Positions 49,455 through 59,786 of a DNA stretch of 64,000 nucleotides are shown here, one piece after another. The stretch is from Halococcus sediminicola (GTDB lineage: Archaea > Halobacteriota > Halobacteria > Halobacteriales > Halococcaceae). Numbering within the stretch: position 1 is the first letter of the stretch; the number at the start of each line of letters is the position of its first letter. The notes beneath the pieces were generated by a model, which did no database searches, was not told where the DNA came from, and saw only the letters and a list, made by a program, of their open reading frames with translations. The DNA lies in assembly GCF_000755245.1 (NCBI RefSeq), contig NZ_BBMP01000026.1, positions 124,001 to 188,000 on the forward strand, written 5' to 3'. The position numbers and the translations under genes were made by a program.

Positions 49455-50853
49455 ATGCGAATCCACTGGCATCGCCGCGACCTCCGGGCGGCCGACAACC
49501 GCGCGCTCGCGGCGGCCGTCGAGGACGACTCCGTGATACCGGCCTTCGTCTTCGACCCCGACGTGCTCCAGTATGCAAGCCCGCCCAGGGTGGCGTTCCT
49601 GCTCGATGCGCTCGATTCCCTGCGAGGGTGCTACCGCGAGCGCGGCGGCGACCTCGTCGTCGTCGAGGGTGACCCGGCCGAGGAACTCCCACGGATCGCC
49701 GACGAACATGGTGTCGACGCAGTGTTCTGGAATCACGACTACACGGGTCTCGCTCAGGAACGTGACCAGCGAGTGCGCGAAGCACTCGACGACGCCGGCA
49801 TCGCCCGTGAGGAGTTTCACGATGCCGTCCACCACGAACCAGGCACTATCACGACCAACGATGGCGACCCGTACTCGGTGTTTTCCTACTTCGGCGACAA
49901 ATGGCTCGACCGCGAGAAGGCCGAGCCGTATCCCGTCCCCGACGGCGACGCACTCGCCGCCATCGAGGGCGAGACGATGCCGACCATCGGGGAACTGGGG
50001 TTCGATGACCCGACCGCCGACATCCCAAAAGCGGGTATCGAGGCAGCCCGCGAACGTCTCGAAGCGTTCTGTGGGGAGCGAATCTTCGAGTACGACGAGG
50101 GTCGTGAGTATCCCGCGCGTGCGGGCACCTCGCGGCTCTCACAGGATCTCAACTATGGAATCATCGGCGAGCGTGAAGGTCACAGAGCGGGTCGGCGCGG
50201 CGCTCGAAGATGCCGACGGCGAGGAGCGCGAAGCGGTCGAGGCCTATCGCCGAGAGCTGGCCTTTAGCGAGTTCTTCACCCACGTCCTGTTCTACAACCC
50301 CGAAGTCGTGACTGAAAACCACAAGGACTACGAGAACGCCATCGACTGGCGCGAGGATAACGAGGAGTTGCAGGCGTGGAAGGAAGGGCGGACTGGGTAT
50401 CCCATCGTCGATGCGGGGATGCGCCAACTCCGCGAGGAGGCCACCATGCACAACCGGGTTCGGATGGCCGTCGCCTCGTTTCTCACGAAGGACCTCATGT
50501 GCGACTGGCGCGCAGGCTACGCCCACTTCCGCGAACGGCTCGTCGACCACGACACCGCAAACGACAGCGGCAACTGGCAGTGGGCGGCCTCCACAGGGAC
50601 CGATGCCCAGCCGTACTTTCGCGTGTTCAACCCGATGACGCAGGGTGAAAAATACGATCCCGACGCCGAGTACATCAAACAATACGTCCCCGAACTCGAA
50701 GACGCCGACCCCGAGACGATTCACTCATGGAACAAACTGGGCGCGGACGAACGCGAGTCGGCCGCGCCCGACTATCCGGCCCCGATCTGCGACCACGGCG
50801 AACGCCGCGAGCAGGCGATCGCGATGTTCGAGCGCGCCCGCGGCGAGGACTGA
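49455..50853 (+). pseudogene. phr: Deoxyribodipyrimidine photolyase, frameshifted
   Basis: The gene is in two frames. The N-terminal half (from 49455, residues 1-241) has the photolyase antenna domain 'IHWHRRDLRAADNRALAAAVE' and 'GTSRLSQDLNYGIIGERE'. The C-terminal half continues one frame over from 50179 (VTERVGAALEDADGEERE..., then the FAD-binding NWQWAASTGTDAQPYFRVFNP). One extra G at 50178-50179 joins them; removing it gives 465 residues, the normal length. All other codons are intact, so this is a recent mutation or a sequencing error. If real, the cell lacks this photorepair enzyme unless another copy exists. An ATG at 50155 could start a C-terminal fragment. Confidence 0.88.
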
Positions 50854-51667: not shown

Positions 51668-52720
51668 ATGCCTGATTTCATCACTCCACCGCCCGTCGAG
51701 CGCGGTGATCGGGTTGCGGTCGTCGCGCCGGCATCGAACGTGCCTGCATCCGCCCGGTTCGTCTACGACCTCGGTCTCGAACGGATGCGCGACACGTTCG
51801 ACCTCGAACCAGTCGAATACCCGACCGCGACCGCCGACCCGGAGTGGCTCGCGGACAACCCCGAAGCGCGCGCCGAGGACGTGATGGATGCCTTCCGCGA
51901 CCCGGACATTTCGGCTGTAATCGCCAACATCGGCGGCCACGACCAGATCAGGATTCTGCCGTATCTCGACGGCGACGTACTCCGCGAACACCCGACGCGG
52001 TTCTACGGCTACTCCGACAACACGAATCTTGCACTGTTCCTCTGGAATCAGGGGATCGTCTCCTATTACGGCGGTTCGACGCTGCTCGAATACGCGATGG
52101 ACGGCGAGATGTTCGACTATACTGAAGAATACCTCCGCCGCGCGCTCTTCGAGGAGTCCATCGGCGAGTGGACCGAAGCCGACGTGTTCACCGACGAGGC
52201 CGGTGACTGGGAAAATCCCGAGTCAGTCGAAACGACGCGCGAGATCGAGCAGTCCGACGGTCGAACTTGGTGTGGTGGTGACGGGACCGTTTCGGGGCGG
52301 ATCTGGGGTGGCTGCTGCGCGATCCTCGTCGAGCAGTTCCTCGCCGACCGCTACGTGCCCGAGCCCAACGCGCTGGACGGCACCGTTCTCGCATTAGAGA
52401 CGAGCGAGCTGATCCCAGACCCGGCTGTCGTCGGTGCGAACCTCCGGGCACTCGGCGAGCGTGGGGTCCTCGAACGGTTCGACGGTGTTCTCGTCGGGCG
52501 CGCCGCCGCGCGCTCGCACGTCGAGGACAATCCATCGGACTGGCGCACGGAATATCGAGAGCGTCAGCGCGACGCGATCGCGGGCGTTCTCGAGACGTAC
52601 AACCCGGGTGCGCCCGTCGTCTTCGATTGCGAGTTCGGACATACGTATCCGACCTGTCCCGTTCCGATCGGTGGCGAAGTCGAAATAACGCCCGCGACCG
52701 AATCGATCCGGTTTCTCTGA
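51668..52720 (+). CDS. S66 family peptidase (LD-carboxypeptidase/MccF-like)
   Basis: A 350-residue S66 serine peptidase. Conserved blocks are 'RGDRVAVVAPAS', 'GYSDNTNLALFLWNQGI' with the nucleophilic Ser, 'ALETSELIPDP' with the Glu, and 'CEFGHTYPTCPVPIG' with the catalytic His. Bacterial relatives cleave LD-bonds in murein or inactivate microcin C; haloarchaea have no murein, so a role against toxic peptidyl-nucleotides or in amino acid ester hydrolysis is more likely. It stands alone. Confidence 0.87.
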   Translation: MPDFITPPPVERGDRVAVVAPASNVPASARFVYDLGLERMRDTFDLEPVEYPTATADPEWLADNPEARAEDVMDAFRDPDISAVIANIGGHDQIRILPYLDGDVLREHPTRFYGYSDNTNLALFLWNQGIVSYYGGSTLLEYAMDGEMFDYTEEYLRRALFEESIGEWTEADVFTDEAGDWENPESVETTREIEQSDGRTWCGGDGTVSGRIWGGCCAILVEQFLADRYVPEPNALDGTVLALETSELIPDPAVVGANLRALGERGVLERFDGVLVGRAAARSHVEDNPSDWRTEYRERQRDAIAGVLETYNPGAPVVFDCEFGHTYPTCPVPIGGEVEITPATESIRFL

Positions 52721-53770: not shown

Positions 53771-54796
53771 CTATTTCCTCACGATTTCGTCGAGAACCGC
53801 TCGATAGGTTTCGGCCACCCGCTCGTAGTCGAAGCGGGCGACGTATTCGCGGAACGAATCGTCACCCTCGCGCTCGCCGGCGTGCTCGATCGCGGCGGCG
53901 ATTTCCGGCGGGCGAGGCTCACAGAACTCGGCGTATTCTCCAAATCGTGCTTCGGCGCGGCCACGTGCCTGCACCACCGACAGCCCCGCTGCGGCGTATT
54001 CGAGGACCTTCAGCGTGTGGGGATCGTCGACCAGCGAGACGCCGACGTCGGCGGCGTGCAGATAGCCCGGGATCGACTCGTGGGCGACCGTGCCGAGGAA
54101 GACGACGTTCTCGCGTTCGCCAGCAGCGTGCTCGACCGCCGGCGCGAGCGACCCCGTGCCGAGCACGACCAGCGTCCACTCTTGGAGACGGTCCATCGCC
54201 GCGAGCAGCTCTTGGATATGGTAGATCGGTTCGAGACCACCGACGTAGATCGCCAGCCGCTCGTCGGCGTCGACACCCGCCTCGTGGAGTCGGTCGTTGG
54301 CGGCCGCAACGATTTCGGGATCGGGGGTCGCGAAGCGCTCGTAGCTCACCCCGAGACCCGTTTTCGTCGTTTCGCGGGCGTAGCGCGAGACCCGTTCGTG
54401 TTCTTCGTCGTAGACGTAGAGGGTGTGGTCAGCTAATCGAAAGGCGAGGTTCTCGGCGGCTCGTACCGCGATCGAAAGGGGTTGTGGATTGGTGTCGGCG
54501 AACTGCCGGATGGGGTCGATGTGATCGACGACGAACGGCGTTCCGAGGAGTTTCAGTAGCGAACCCGCGAACGCACCGGATCGAGTCGTGCCGAGAACCG
54601 CGTCGTACTCCTCATGCTTGCGCAGCGACTGGCACACCGTTCGTGGCGTCGTTCCCCGAAGCGTCACGTCGAACCCACTGGCTTCGAGTCGGTCGGCGAT
54701 CCGCCGGCGGCCGACACTGATGTTCGCGGGCTTGTCGGGCGTGAGCCAGAGCACACACGGATCGTCGCGCTCGTCGGGCTTTTCGTCCCCGATCAT
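53771..54796 (-). CDS. GT4-family glycosyltransferase
   Basis: A 341-residue glycosyltransferase. The C-terminal half has the GT-B pattern: 'IYVGGLEPIYHIQELLAAMDRL', 'LVVLGTGSLAP', 'PGYLHAADVGVSLVDDPHTLKVLEYAAAGLSVV'. The last region contains the usual GT4 loop with the EX7E-like acid pair (weak: only one Glu is clear). It overlaps the aglG-like gene's stop by 4 nt and probably adds one sugar in the lipid-linked glycan. Acceptor and sugar unknown. Confidence 0.82.
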   Translation of the reverse strand: MIGDEKPDERDDPCVLWLTPDKPANISVGRRRIADRLEASGFDVTLRGTTPRTVCQSLRKHEEYDAVLGTTRSGAFAGSLLKLLGTPFVVDHIDPIRQFADTNPQPLSIAVRAAENLAFRLADHTLYVYDEEHERVSRYARETTKTGLGVSYERFATPDPEIVAAANDRLHEAGVDADERLAIYVGGLEPIYHIQELLAAMDRLQEWTLVVLGTGSLAPAVEHAAGERENVVFLGTVAHESIPGYLHAADVGVSLVDDPHTLKVLEYAAAGLSVVQARGRAEARFGEYAEFCEPRPPEIAAAIEHAGEREGDDSFREYVARFDYERVAETYRAVLDEIVRK

Positions 54797-55740
54797 CGAT
54801 CGAACTCGTCGGGCGGACTGAGGACACCGTAACAGTAGCCGAGTCCGACCAAGAGTGTGAACGCGACGAGCGAGAGCAGTTGGAGTAGCTTTCCGCCGGT
54901 CGGTTCGCGGTACAGCTCTCGGAGTCGGTGAGGGAGGAAGTCGGTGAGCAGTCGGCCGAGAAAGGCGCTCTCCTCGCCGGTCGAGTCCGGGACGAGACCT
55001 TCCATCGCGCGCTTGGAGTAGCCCTGCCAGAACGCGCGGTCGGCGAGCCAGCGTGGTTTCGTCCGGTAATCGAAGACCTTGTGGGCGACCTCGGCGGCCG
55101 GCATGTAGTGGACGCCCTCGCCGTACTCTTCTTCGAGGCGGGCACAGAGTTCGGTCTCGCCGCCCTGTAAATTCTTGCTGCCTTTCCGCCCGCCGATGGC
55201 GGGGTCGAACCCGCCGAGGCTCGTGAAGACTTCACGGCGAAAGGAGAGGTTCGAGCCGAACGTGTTCCGGACTTCTCCCTTGCGCTGCTCGTCGCCATCG
55301 GGACCGAACCCGCGGTGGGTGACGCCGACGAGCCAGTAGAACTCCGCGGGCAGGAAGGAGGGCTTGCCGGCGACCCACTCGGGAACCATCCGCCCGCCGA
55401 CCGCGAGCGCGTCCTCGTCTTCGTAGGCCGCGACCAGCCGCTCGACCCACGCGGGGTGGGCGCGTGCGTCGTCGTCGAGGAAGGCCACGACGTCACCCGC
55501 GGCGAGTTCGACACCCGTGTTCCGGCTTTCGAGAAGGCCGCGGTTCTCGTCGTTCACGAAGAGTCGGACGTCGTCGTGGCTGCCGTAGGTCTCGCGGACG
55601 CGCTCTGCGAGGGCGGGCGAGCCATCGACGACGACCACGAGTTCCGTGGGATAGGTCTGGGCGAGCACGCTGTCGGCCGCGTCACGGAAGCGCTCGAACG
55701 ACGCCTCGTCGTAGGTGCAGAGCACGACTGAGACCCGCAT
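54793..55740 (-). CDS. aglG: GT2-family glycosyltransferase with C-terminal helix (AglG-like)
   Basis: A 315-residue GT-A enzyme. 'VSVVLCTYDEASFERFRDAADSVLAQTYPTELVVVVDGS' opens the fold (split across two strands); the metal-binding 'FLDDDARAHP' follows, then 'FGSNLSFRREVFTSLGGFDPAIGG'. A hydrophobic segment at about residues 285-305 anchors it. It resembles Haloferax AglG, which adds a hexuronic acid to dolichyl phosphate glycan. It is divergent from aglB across 105 bp, a strong functional link. The name is by similarity and position; the exact sugar is not shown. Confidence 0.8.
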   Translation of the reverse strand: MRVSVVLCTYDEASFERFRDAADSVLAQTYPTELVVVVDGSPALAERVRETYGSHDDVRLFVNDENRGLLESRNTGVELAAGDVVAFLDDDARAHPAWVERLVAAYEDEDALAVGGRMVPEWVAGKPSFLPAEFYWLVGVTHRGFGPDGDEQRKGEVRNTFGSNLSFRREVFTSLGGFDPAIGGRKGSKNLQGGETELCARLEEEYGEGVHYMPAAEVAHKVFDYRTKPRWLADRAFWQGYSKRAMEGLVPDSTGEESAFLGRLLTDFLPHRLRELYREPTGGKLLQLLSLVAFTLLVGLGYCYGVLSPPDEFDR

Positions 55741-55845: not shown

Positions 55846-58800
55846 ATGAGTCAACGTAGGGAGCGACTCGCCGAACGGCTCCCGGATTTCGGGCCGCTCC
55901 TCGATCGCGTCGGGGCGCTGTACCACATCCCTCTGCTGCTCGCGCTCGTCGGCTTCATGTTCTGGATCCGCGTGCGCAACTGGCGGAACTTCCTCGTCGA
56001 CGGACAGGTCTACTTCAGCGGCAACGACGCGTGGTATCACCTCCGACAGGTCAGCTACACGGTGCGACACTGGCCGTCGACGATGCCGTTCGACCCGTGG
56101 ACGAGCTTTCCGACCGGAACGAGCGTCGGCCAGTTCGGGACGCTGTACGACCAGCTCGTCGCCACCGTCGCGCTGATCGTCGGCGGCGGCAGCCCCTCCG
56201 AACAGACGACGGCACTCACCCTGCTGTTCGCGCCGGCCGTACTGGGCACGCTCGTCGCCGTCCCAACCTACTTCCTCGGCAAGCGCTTCGGCGGCCGCTT
56301 CGGGGGTGTCGTCGGCGTCGCCATCCTCGCGCTCTCGCCGAGTACTTTCCTCGGGCGTTCGGTCGCGGGCTTTTCGGACCACCACACCGCCGAGGTGCTC
56401 TTCCAGGTGCTCGCGGTCGCGGCCATCGTCGTCGCGCTCGCGGTCGCCGAACGCGAGAAACCGGTCTACGAACAGTTCGTCGGGCGCGATTTCGACAACC
56501 TACGCCGCCCGATCGGTTGGGGGATCCTTGCTGGTATCGCCATCCTCCTCTACGTCTGGGCGTGGCCGCCCGGTCTCATGCTCGTCGGGATCTTCGGCGT
56601 GTTCCTGCTCGTCACCCTCCCCATCGAACACCTCCGCGGGGAGAGTCCCGAACACGTCGCCATCGTGAGCGCGATCGCGCTCGCGGTCGCCGGTCTCGGC
56701 TTTCTCGTCTCGTTTGACACGTTCGAAGTGAGCGTGACGAACTTCTCACTCCTGCACCCGGCGATGGCTTTCGCCGGCGCGTTCGGCTGTGTGTTCATGG
56801 CGTGGCTCGCCCGGCAACTCGAAGCGCGCGACCTCCCCAAACTCGCCTATCCGGGCGCGATCTTCGGTCTCTTCGCCCTCGGCGCGCTCGTGATGGCACT
56901 CGCCCTGCCCGACCTCTTTTCCTTTTTCGTCGGTCAGTTGGAGCGCGTCGTCGGGTTCGGATCGAGCGCGACCTCGCTGACTGTGGGCGAGGCGATTCCA
57001 CCGCGGAATCCGGGGCAGTTCCTCTTCGGTGCCTACGGGTTGGGGCTGGTGACGGCTCTCGCCGGCGCGGCGCTGCTGCTCGTCCGGCTCGCACTCGGGC
57101 GGAGCGAGGAGCGCGCTGGCGCGCTGTTCGTCCTCGTCTGGACCGCGTTCATGCTCGCCGCGACACTCACCCAGTCGCGGTTCAACTACTATCTCGTCGT
57201 CCCCATCGCCGTGCTGAACGCCTTCTTCGTCGGGCAGGTGCTGCGATACGTCGGCTCGACCGATGCGCGCTCCAGTCTCCGCAACCTCCGGGCGTATCAG
57301 GTGCTCACGGTGCTCGCGGTCGTCTTCCTCATCACCGCACCCCTGGCCGCCGGCGGGGGCGCGAGTGTGACCGCGGCCGGCAATTACGCCGACCAGAGTT
57401 CCAGCCCCGGTTCGACCGTCGTCGGCTGGGACGGCAGCCTCGAATGGATGGCGAACAACACGCCCGCCGAGGGGACCTACGGCGGTCACGACAACGCGAT
57501 GGAGTACTACGGCGAGTACGAGCGCACCGACGACTTCGACTATCCCGACGGAGCCTACGGCGTGCTCTCGTGGTGGGACTACGGCCACTGGATAACGGTG
57601 CTCGGCGAGCGAATCCCGACCGCGAACCCCTTCCAGCAGAACGCCGGGGAGGCGGCGAACTTCTTGCTCGCGCCGAACGCCTCGCGTGCGAACGAGATCG
57701 CACGCACCAAGGACGGCGAGGGCGTGCGCTACGTGATGATCGACTGGAAGATGGCCGACCCGGCGGGCGGGGCGCTCTTTAGCGCACCCTTCACGTGGTA
57801 CAACGACGGCCCGCTGTCGATCTACGAGGACGTGACGCCGATCGCCACCCAATCGAGCGGCCAACAGCGGCCCACCACCTCGTTTTTGGCCTACGAACAG
57901 CGCCACTACGAGACCATGCGCACGCGACTGTACACCTATCACGGCAGTGCGGCCGAACCGGGCCCCGTGGTGGTCGATTACGAGAGTCCACAACCGCTCG
58001 CGGACGGGACTCTCCAGAGCGCGTTCGCTCCATCGGGCAACGAGAGCGCCGTCAAGCGCTTCGAAAACGTGTCCGCCGCGCGCCAGTTCGTCGAGCAGGA
58101 CGGGACGGCCCAGCTCGGCGGCGTCGGCAGTTATCCCCAAGAGCGCGTGCCGGCGCTCGAACACTACCGGCTGGCACACGCCAGTCAGGCGAACGCCATC
58201 GGCGGGGCGAGCGGTCCGGGGCCGCTCTATCGGAGCGCGCTTCAACAACTCCGAACCACCGGACTGAACGCGACCGAACTGTTCGGGACGCCGACCAACT
58301 GGGTCAAGACGTTCGAGCGCGTCGATGGGGCGACCGTCGAGGGGCAGGGACCGCCGAACTCGACCGTGGAAGCCACCGTCGAGATGCGGATGCCGACCAC
58401 GAACGACACGACGTTCAACTACACCCAGCAGGCTACGACGAACGCGCAGGGCGAGTTCACGATGACGCTACCGTACTCGACGACCGGCTACGAGCAGTGG
58501 GGCACCGAGGATGGAGCGACGAACGTCTCGGTGCGGGCGACCGGCCCGTACACCTTCCGAACGCCGGTGACGGGAGCGGGTGACAACACCAGCCGGTGGA
58601 ACGCCACCACCGAGATTTCGGAGGGTGCGGTCATCGGCCGCACGAACGAGACTGTCTCGGTCGACCTCCAGCGCGAATCGGTCTCGATGCCGGCCACCGC
58701 GAGCGCGAACGGGGCGGGCGGGAACATGTCGGGCGACGCCCCCGCCGGCAACGCCACGGATGAGAACGCATCGGCGGTGAACGCGAGCACGCTGGCAACA

Positions 58801-58848
58801 CCCGAGATCGGTACGCCTGTCGCAGCACGCACACGGGTGAGCGGATGA
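55846..58848 (+). CDS. aglB: Dolichyl-phosphooligosaccharide-protein glycotransferase AglB
   Basis: A 1000-residue STT3-type oligosaccharyltransferase. About 12 hydrophobic segments occupy residues 25-510, with the first-loop acidic site NDAWYH. WWDYGHW at 576-582 is the catalytic signature in the external domain. The C-terminal ~400 residues are a soluble beta-rich domain with many N-x-S/T sequons. AglB moves the lipid-linked glycan to Asn of S-layer and other exported proteins. It is divergent from aglG and overlaps the DUF368 gene by 4 nt. TATA-like GCCTTATG sits 29 nt upstream. Confidence 0.95.
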   Translation: MSQRRERLAERLPDFGPLLDRVGALYHIPLLLALVGFMFWIRVRNWRNFLVDGQVYFSGNDAWYHLRQVSYTVRHWPSTMPFDPWTSFPTGTSVGQFGTLYDQLVATVALIVGGGSPSEQTTALTLLFAPAVLGTLVAVPTYFLGKRFGGRFGGVVGVAILALSPSTFLGRSVAGFSDHHTAEVLFQVLAVAAIVVALAVAEREKPVYEQFVGRDFDNLRRPIGWGILAGIAILLYVWAWPPGLMLVGIFGVFLLVTLPIEHLRGESPEHVAIVSAIALAVAGLGFLVSFDTFEVSVTNFSLLHPAMAFAGAFGCVFMAWLARQLEARDLPKLAYPGAIFGLFALGALVMALALPDLFSFFVGQLERVVGFGSSATSLTVGEAIPPRNPGQFLFGAYGLGLVTALAGAALLLVRLALGRSEERAGALFVLVWTAFMLAATLTQSRFNYYLVVPIAVLNAFFVGQVLRYVGSTDARSSLRNLRAYQVLTVLAVVFLITAPLAAGGGASVTAAGNYADQSSSPGSTVVGWDGSLEWMANNTPAEGTYGGHDNAMEYYGEYERTDDFDYPDGAYGVLSWWDYGHWITVLGERIPTANPFQQNAGEAANFLLAPNASRANEIARTKDGEGVRYVMIDWKMADPAGGALFSAPFTWYNDGPLSIYEDVTPIATQSSGQQRPTTSFLAYEQRHYETMRTRLYTYHGSAAEPGPVVVDYESPQPLADGTLQSAFAPSGNESAVKRFENVSAARQFVEQDGTAQLGGVGSYPQERVPALEHYRLAHASQANAIGGASGPGPLYRSALQQLRTTGLNATELFGTPTNWVKTFERVDGATVEGQGPPNSTVEATVEMRMPTTNDTTFNYTQQATTNAQGEFTMTLPYSTTGYEQWGTEDGATNVSVRATGPYTFRTPVTGAGDNTSRWNATTEISEGAVIGRTNETVSVDLQRESVSMPATASANGAGGNMSGDAPAGNATDENASAVNASTLATPEIGTPVAARTRVSG

Positions 58849-59786
58849 GCGCGGCACGCGAGTGGCTCTCGATCTACCTCAAGGGCGTGTTCATGGGCGC
58901 CGCGGACGCGGTGCCGGGCGTCTCTGGAGGCACTATCGCGCTCATCACGGGCATCTACGAGCGCTTGATTCGAGCTATCACGAGCCTCGACCCGCGGGCG
59001 CTGCGCCATCTCCCTCGCCTCCACCGACGGAGCGAGCGGGCCGCCTTCCGGGCCGCGCTCGTCGGGATGGACATCCCGTTCCTGCTCGCGCTCGGGATGG
59101 GAATTCTCACGGCGCTGGTCACCGTCGCGCGGGTCATGGACTACGCCTTCGAGACGTATCCGGGGCTGGTCGCCGCGCTGTTTTTCGGTCTCATCGCCGC
59201 CTCGGCGGTCGTCCTCGCCGAACACGTCGCGCTCGATACCCCCCGACGAATCGCCGTCGCCGTCTTCGGGTTCGTCTTCGCGTTCTTGCTTTCCGGACCC
59301 GAGGTCAGCGGCTCGATGCCGAACTCGCCGGTGTTCGTCTTCGTCGCCGGCTCCATCGCCATCGCGGGGATGATCCTGCCCGGTATCTCGGGGGCCTTCT
59401 TCCTCTACGTCCTCGGCCAGTACGAGTACCTGACGGGGACGTTGACGGAGTTCACGAACGCGCTCGCCGGACTGTTTGCCGGTGGGAGCCTTGCGGCGCT
59501 CGTCGAACCCGGCATCGTCGTCGTCGCGTTCGGTCTCGGCGCACTCATCGGACTCTTCTCGATCGCCTACGCCATCCGCTGGGCGCTTGCGAACTACCGC
59601 GACGCTACTCTCACCTTTCTCGTGAGTCTGATGGTCGGTGCGCTCAGGCTTCCCGCCACGGAGGTGCTACAGAACACGCCCGAGGCGACGCCGATGGCGG
59701 TCGGGAGCGTGGTGGCCGTCGCCGTCGCGGGCGGCGCGCTCGTCGTTCTCGTCGATCGGTTCACCGAGGACATCGAGTTCGCGTGA
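58845..59786 (+). CDS. DUF368 membrane protein (polyprenyl-phosphate translocase candidate)
   Basis: A 313-residue membrane protein with about eight hydrophobic segments. DUF368 hallmarks are visible: 'GVFMGAADAVPGVSGGTIALITGIYERLI' in the first loop and 'AGMILPGISGAFFLYVLGQYEYL' later, related motifs that suggest an internal repeat. Bacterial DUF368 proteins (PopT) return undecaprenyl phosphate across the membrane. The ATG overlaps the aglB stop (ATGA), so the two are translated together. I infer it recycles the dolichyl phosphate that AglB releases; not proven in archaea as far as I know. Confidence 0.85.
   Translation: MSAAREWLSIYLKGVFMGAADAVPGVSGGTIALITGIYERLIRAITSLDPRALRHLPRLHRRSERAAFRAALVGMDIPFLLALGMGILTALVTVARVMDYAFETYPGLVAALFFGLIAASAVVLAEHVALDTPRRIAVAVFGFVFAFLLSGPEVSGSMPNSPVFVFVAGSIAIAGMILPGISGAFFLYVLGQYEYLTGTLTEFTNALAGLFAGGSLAALVEPGIVVVAFGLGALIGLFSIAYAIRWALANYRDATLTFLVSLMVGALRLPATEVLQNTPEATPMAVGSVVAVAVAGGALVVLVDRFTEDIEFA

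Follow-up and report, generated by a model that had tools for sequence, protein, structure and literature searches.

Haloarchaeal DUF368 genes that are linked to aglB probably encode PopT-type translocases that return dolichyl phosphate after the oligosaccharyltransferase AglB has used it. The family is already known; the archaeal role proposed for it and its linkage to aglB are new. Membership of the family and linkage of the genes are shown here, and in published work the H. volcanii protein partly substitutes for a bacterial undecaprenyl-phosphate translocase. The archaeal substrate would be dolichyl phosphate, transport would run inwards, and N-glycosylation would be served above other pathways that use the same carrier.

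The aglB–DUF368 pair and its surroundings

The window, by which we mean the whole 64,000-nucleotide stretch of Halococcus sediminicola DNA analysed, contains aglB at positions 55846–58848 on the plus strand, which encodes a 1000-amino-acid oligosaccharyltransferase of the archaeosortase-associated type. Its product matches TIGR04154 (archaeo_STT3) above the cut-off (E = 1.1e-270), as well as PF02516, PF22627 and PF18079; the AglB core and L1 domains are present, and the catalytic WWDYG motif occurs in the translation as SWWDYGHW. The DUF368 gene (PF04018; 58845–59786, plus strand) encodes a 313-amino-acid member of the polyprenyl-phosphate translocase family (PopT/VCA0040) that is approximately 81% identical to the homologues of Halococcus thailandensis and H. 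morrhuae, the nearest among nine named relatives, which belong to Halococcus and other genera and include no Haloferax. The sequence-only reading had placed both open reading frames at these positions on the plus strand and had described an overlap of the aglB stop codon with the DUF368 start, and the ATGA at 58845–58848 is exactly that. At this junction (58836–58848, plus strand), read directly in the sequence, a GGTGA (58836–58840) precedes the DUF368 ATG with a 4-nt spacer.

Divergent from aglB lies aglG (54793–55740, minus strand), an NF041394 equivalog (461 bits, cut-off 440) predicted to encode glucosyl-dolichyl-phosphate glucuronosyltransferase, which overlaps by 4 nt a gene for a GT4-type glycosyltransferase (53771–54796, minus strand; PF13692, E = 8e-13). 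Inspection by eye of the open reading frames in the window found no further glycosylation gene beyond these four, and the 'compact N-glycosylation locus' described earlier therefore holds for aglB–DUF368 and the divergent aglG–GT4 pair, and for nothing more. Elsewhere in the window, a photolyase-like gene on the plus strand (49455–50853) is split over two frames (49455–50267 and 49573–50853), a pattern that a single-base frameshift around position 50200 would produce, either in a broken gene or through an assembly error. A gene at 51668–52720 (plus strand) encodes a peptidase of the S66 (LD-carboxypeptidase) family, with PF02016 and PF17676 both above cut-off, in an archaeon without peptidoglycan.

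Family and structure of the DUF368 protein

The DUF368 protein matches PF04018 (COG2035), the current Pfam name of which is 'Undecaprenyl phosphate translocase-like', at a score of 222.6 bits (cut-off 26; E = 7.5e-66; profile positions 1–229 of 246). This is its sole Pfam match at E ≤ 0.001, and at that threshold no match to PF09335 (DedA/UptA) was found. The scores for two bacterial equivalog models fall below the 400-bit cut-offs (NF052564, 195.8 bits, E = 1e-57; NF052563, 81.6 bits), and by these profile comparisons the protein is classed as a member of the wider PF04018 family outside those bacterial orthologue groups. Each half of the protein carries one copy of a motif, VPGVSGG at residues 23–29 and LPGISG at residues 178–183, and a half-versus-half alignment identifies the two halves as homologous (98.1% probability, E = 7e-14). 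Residues P24-G25, S27-G28 and Y38 in the first half, and P179-G180, S182-G183 and Y193 in the second, are invariant in an alignment of 65 relatives.

An AlphaFold2 model of the protein is all-helical (pLDDT 93.5, pTM 0.87), with short helices following each PG(V/I)SG motif; together with the related halves, this fits the polytopic membrane protein expected of the family. No PDB entry was matched at E ≤ 1 by sequence or by profile, and a Foldseek search with the model returned nothing at E ≤ 0.001; all second-look alignments were below Z 8, and BacA appeared among the structure matches solely as an insignificant entry. As no solved relative was found, the structure gives no functional clue.

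Linkage of DUF368 to aglB across Halobacteria

PF04018 was found in 289 of the 292 sampled Halobacteria genomes (76/77 genera). To assess linkage, we located both PF04018 and AglB in 80 genomes that cover all 77 genera. Of the 78 genomes that hold DUF368, 55 (representing 53/77 genera) have it downstream of aglB in the same orientation, and there was no case among the linked genomes of an upstream or opposite-strand neighbour. The sequence-only reading had proposed a survey of co-occurrence and would have been undermined by linkage at the level of chance; linkage in 53/77 genera is far beyond that level, with the proviso that the arrangement was probably inherited from one ancestor and the genera are thus not independent observations. 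Of the extra species that appear in both class-wide lists, 52/61 are linked, a rate that is biased because the lists favour high scores. One genus (g9) is mostly unlinked, though its representative was linked, and 24 genera are without the adjacency.

The gap between the two genes is at most 30 nt in 37 of the 55 linked genomes and 31–150 nt in a further 12, counts that may favour short gaps because the start codon nearest the aglB stop was taken. In the four linked genomes with the widest gaps, a UDP-glucose dehydrogenase gene (aglM-like) stands between aglB and DUF368. The window has the ATGA overlap from which translational coupling was proposed, and an operon-like arrangement is kept elsewhere, but the genes overlap in just 15/55 linked genomes (with the exact ATGA, −4, in 6/55), and we rejected coupling as a conserved feature.

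Most other genes of the window have a homologue within 20 kb in only 1–5 of the 54 other linked loci. An aglG homologue occurs within that distance in 31/54, and a homologue of the GT4-type glycosyltransferase in only 5/54. Because the linked set was picked for the pair, the fair reading is of a scrambled neighbourhood in which the pair persists in 53/77 genera. Judged as a possible member of the agl cluster, DUF368 has a linkage to aglB that is conserved beyond general synteny (55/78 versus mostly 1–5/54). Downstream, a GlpA-like FAD oxidoreductase (identified by eye) is present in 25 of the 55 linked loci (L050–L104), on average about 4.7 kb from DUF368, which makes it more frequent there than any gene that lies downstream in the window itself.

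Of the three Halobacteria genomes without DUF368, two (G187 and G206) are also without an AglB match. The third, G021 (locus L154), stands alone among the sampled Halobacteria genomes in having AglB while giving no match to DUF368. It carries two DedA genes and would offer a natural experiment on redundancy, provided that the DUF368 gap is real rather than the result of assembly loss.

Two clades of haloarchaeal DUF368

A maximum-likelihood tree of 85 haloarchaeal DUF368 copies resolves a clade of 25 copies (clade B; support 100/98) that are never linked to aglB; of the remaining 60 copies (clade A), 55 are linked. Among the 80 genomes, 54 hold clade A only, 19 clade B only, 5 both and 2 neither, and the clades avoid each other (Fisher P = 6.5e-12, with relatedness ignored). 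Thus, almost every lineage that lacks the linked gene retains a different DUF368, a pattern to be expected if one copy has replaced the other in a function that the cell needs. Clade B neighbourhoods are without the glycosylation genes of the window. The genome from which the window comes holds both clades, the window gene and a clade B copy at G000:C23:68563-69336 (L119:9366-10349, minus strand), near which no glycosylation gene was called. In one genus (g6), species have A, B or both, as judged by score.

When 12 other archaeal DUF368 sequences were added, the haloarchaeal copies formed one group (FastTree support 0.96); linked copies were among its deepest branches, and clade B was nested inside it. 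The backbone of this tree is weakly supported, so an ancestral aglB–DUF368 linkage is no more than likely on these sequences.

DUF368 in other archaea and the DedA family

Beyond Halobacteria, DUF368 was found in only 37 of approximately 240 sampled genomes of the phylum, and all 37 have STT3. There is no tight DUF368–STT3 link among these 37 genomes; the closest spacing, 12–15 kb, is seen in four genomes of one family. We rejected a module in that family, as the genes between look housekeeping (a thermosome gene and others) and a uracil phosphoribosyltransferase-like gene sits beside DUF368, a pattern that we read as regional synteny. Neighbours of DUF368 elsewhere in the phylum vary and include, by eye, uracil phosphoribosyltransferase-like and phosphoglycerate mutase-like genes. 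In the set of 14 controls, the genomes of M. jannaschii, S. acidocaldarius and M. acetivorans each encode STT3 and DedA but lack DUF368. AglB/STT3 therefore exists without DUF368 outside Halobacteria, and DUF368 is no general archaeal solution or requirement. The sequence-only reading had suggested DUF368 as the archaeal equivalent of PopT; the haloarchaeal linkage and published partial complementation (below) favour this, but not on an archaea-wide scale.

DedA/UptA resembles DUF368 in that a polyprenyl-phosphate translocase function has been proposed for it in bacteria and in being near-universal in Halobacteria (PF09335 in 79/80 genomes), which makes redundancy with DUF368 possible. It differs in belonging to a separate Pfam family and in its genomic setting: in the comparison with DedA that the earlier reading had also suggested, none of the 148 best matches listed adjoins aglB, and the nearest among the matches listed is 3.5 kb away. 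On this basis DedA was rejected as an aglB-linked translocase.

Published function and the Haloferax volcanii locus

In bacteria, DUF368 and DedA proteins bring undecaprenyl phosphate (C55-P) back to the inner leaflet, and in Pseudomonas DUF368 and one DedA protein replace each other, as judged by distribution and complementation (PMC12893004). The H. volcanii DUF368 protein HVO_RS12060 partly complements Vibrio cholerae lacking VCA0040, a C55-P translocase, a result that is partial and was obtained in a bacterium with another lipid; the authors suggest in a general way that dolichol phosphate is recycled likewise, and AglB is unmentioned (PMC9876793). The earlier statement that no archaeal proof was known is partly outdated by this complementation, but it stands for the substrate, the direction of transport and the dependence of N-glycosylation on the protein in any archaeon. 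Our literature search found no publication joining AglB and DUF368 and no haloarchaeal DUF368 mutant.

The window protein shares with PopT/VCA0040 the PF04018 family and the PG(V/I)SG motif, invariant in both halves, and its H. volcanii homologue can partly stand in for VCA0040. It differs in that its expected carrier is dolichyl rather than undecaprenyl, its cell is without peptidoglycan, its gene is linked to an oligosaccharyltransferase and its scores lie below the equivalog cut-offs.

In H. volcanii, aglB is HVO_RS12050 and aglG is HVO_RS12045 (PMC5131992, PMC7749143), and the published agl cluster (aglJ to aglM, HVO_1517–HVO_1531) has aglM, HVO_1531, as its last gene (PMC3871713). The gene order used here is taken from locus tags in publications, by which the tested DUF368 gene, HVO_RS12060, lies two locus tags after aglB. 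We take H. volcanii aglB to be HVO_1530, and from the tag spacing we infer that HVO_RS12060 is HVO_1532, the gene after aglM. The cluster is thus like the window in that aglG adjoins aglB and that DUF368 falls, by locus tags, just past the cluster end; unlike the window, in which DUF368 touches aglB directly, it ends at aglM, and DUF368 is not counted as a member.

Proposed role and alternatives

One published account describes archaeal N-glycans as built on dolichol monophosphate, with few exceptions (PMC4476749), and a review of the H. volcanii pathway gives dolichol phosphate as the carrier and contains no word starting 'recycl' (PMC3871713). In the cycle that we propose, AglB takes the glycan off dolichyl phosphate and attaches it to protein at the outer face, where bare dolichyl monophosphate is left; DUF368, an integral-membrane protein, would carry it back to the cytoplasmic leaflet, and AglJ-type glycosyltransferases would recharge it there. 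As haloarchaeal carriers are mostly monophosphates, the by-product of AglB would be a direct substrate of DUF368, with no pyrophosphatase step, and this would explain why aglB and DUF368 are placed together. We tentatively raise a more specific form, possible although doubtful, in which DUF368 fills the gap at the return step of the haloarchaeal N-glycosylation cycle and is also a dedicated AglB partner, made in step with the enzyme and taking up dolichyl phosphate near it, with clade B as a freed copy that replaced a lost linked gene.

The protein could also recycle dolichyl phosphate for every surface pathway, be it N-glycan assembly, the transfer of mannose by AglS or exopolysaccharide production, with no more than shared regulation or ancestry behind the adjacency to aglB. 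The 24 unlinked genera, the setting of clade B away from the window's glycosylation genes and its replacement of the linked clade in 19 genomes, with co-residence in only 5, all fit such a general recycler, and AglS, which uses Dol-P-mannose outside, would presumably also leave dolichyl phosphate there. The link to aglB, however, outlasts nearly every other neighbour and none is kept as often, which suggests that something keeps the link, and we regard general recycling as unlikely. Adjacency to aglB would be equally consistent with outward flipping of glycan-charged dolichyl phosphate, DUF368 being the unnamed flippase that feeds AglB; the review assigns AglR to Dol-P-mannose only and leaves the tetrasaccharide lipid without a named protein (PMC3871713). 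This seems highly improbable to us, because homologues in bacteria return the bare carrier and one of them can be partly replaced by the H. volcanii protein. Least credible of all is an adjacency inherited without function, with DUF368 doing something unrelated that involves another lipid or an ion: confinement of the link to Halobacteria and the varied DUF368 neighbours in other genomes of the phylum agree with it, whereas retention of the pair in 53 genera amid scrambled synteny and the published partial rescue of V. cholerae lacking a C55-P translocase speak against it.

The pathway descriptions consulted here do not cover how archaea return the dolichyl phosphate that AglB releases, and the linkage names one candidate gene for this step; the gene near aglB also proves to encode the one archaeal DUF368 protein with a published complementation test in a bacterium. 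If the role that we consider probable is correct, the lipid cycle of archaeal N-glycosylation would be complete, and a family that recycles carriers for the bacterial cell wall would also serve a cell without peptidoglycan.
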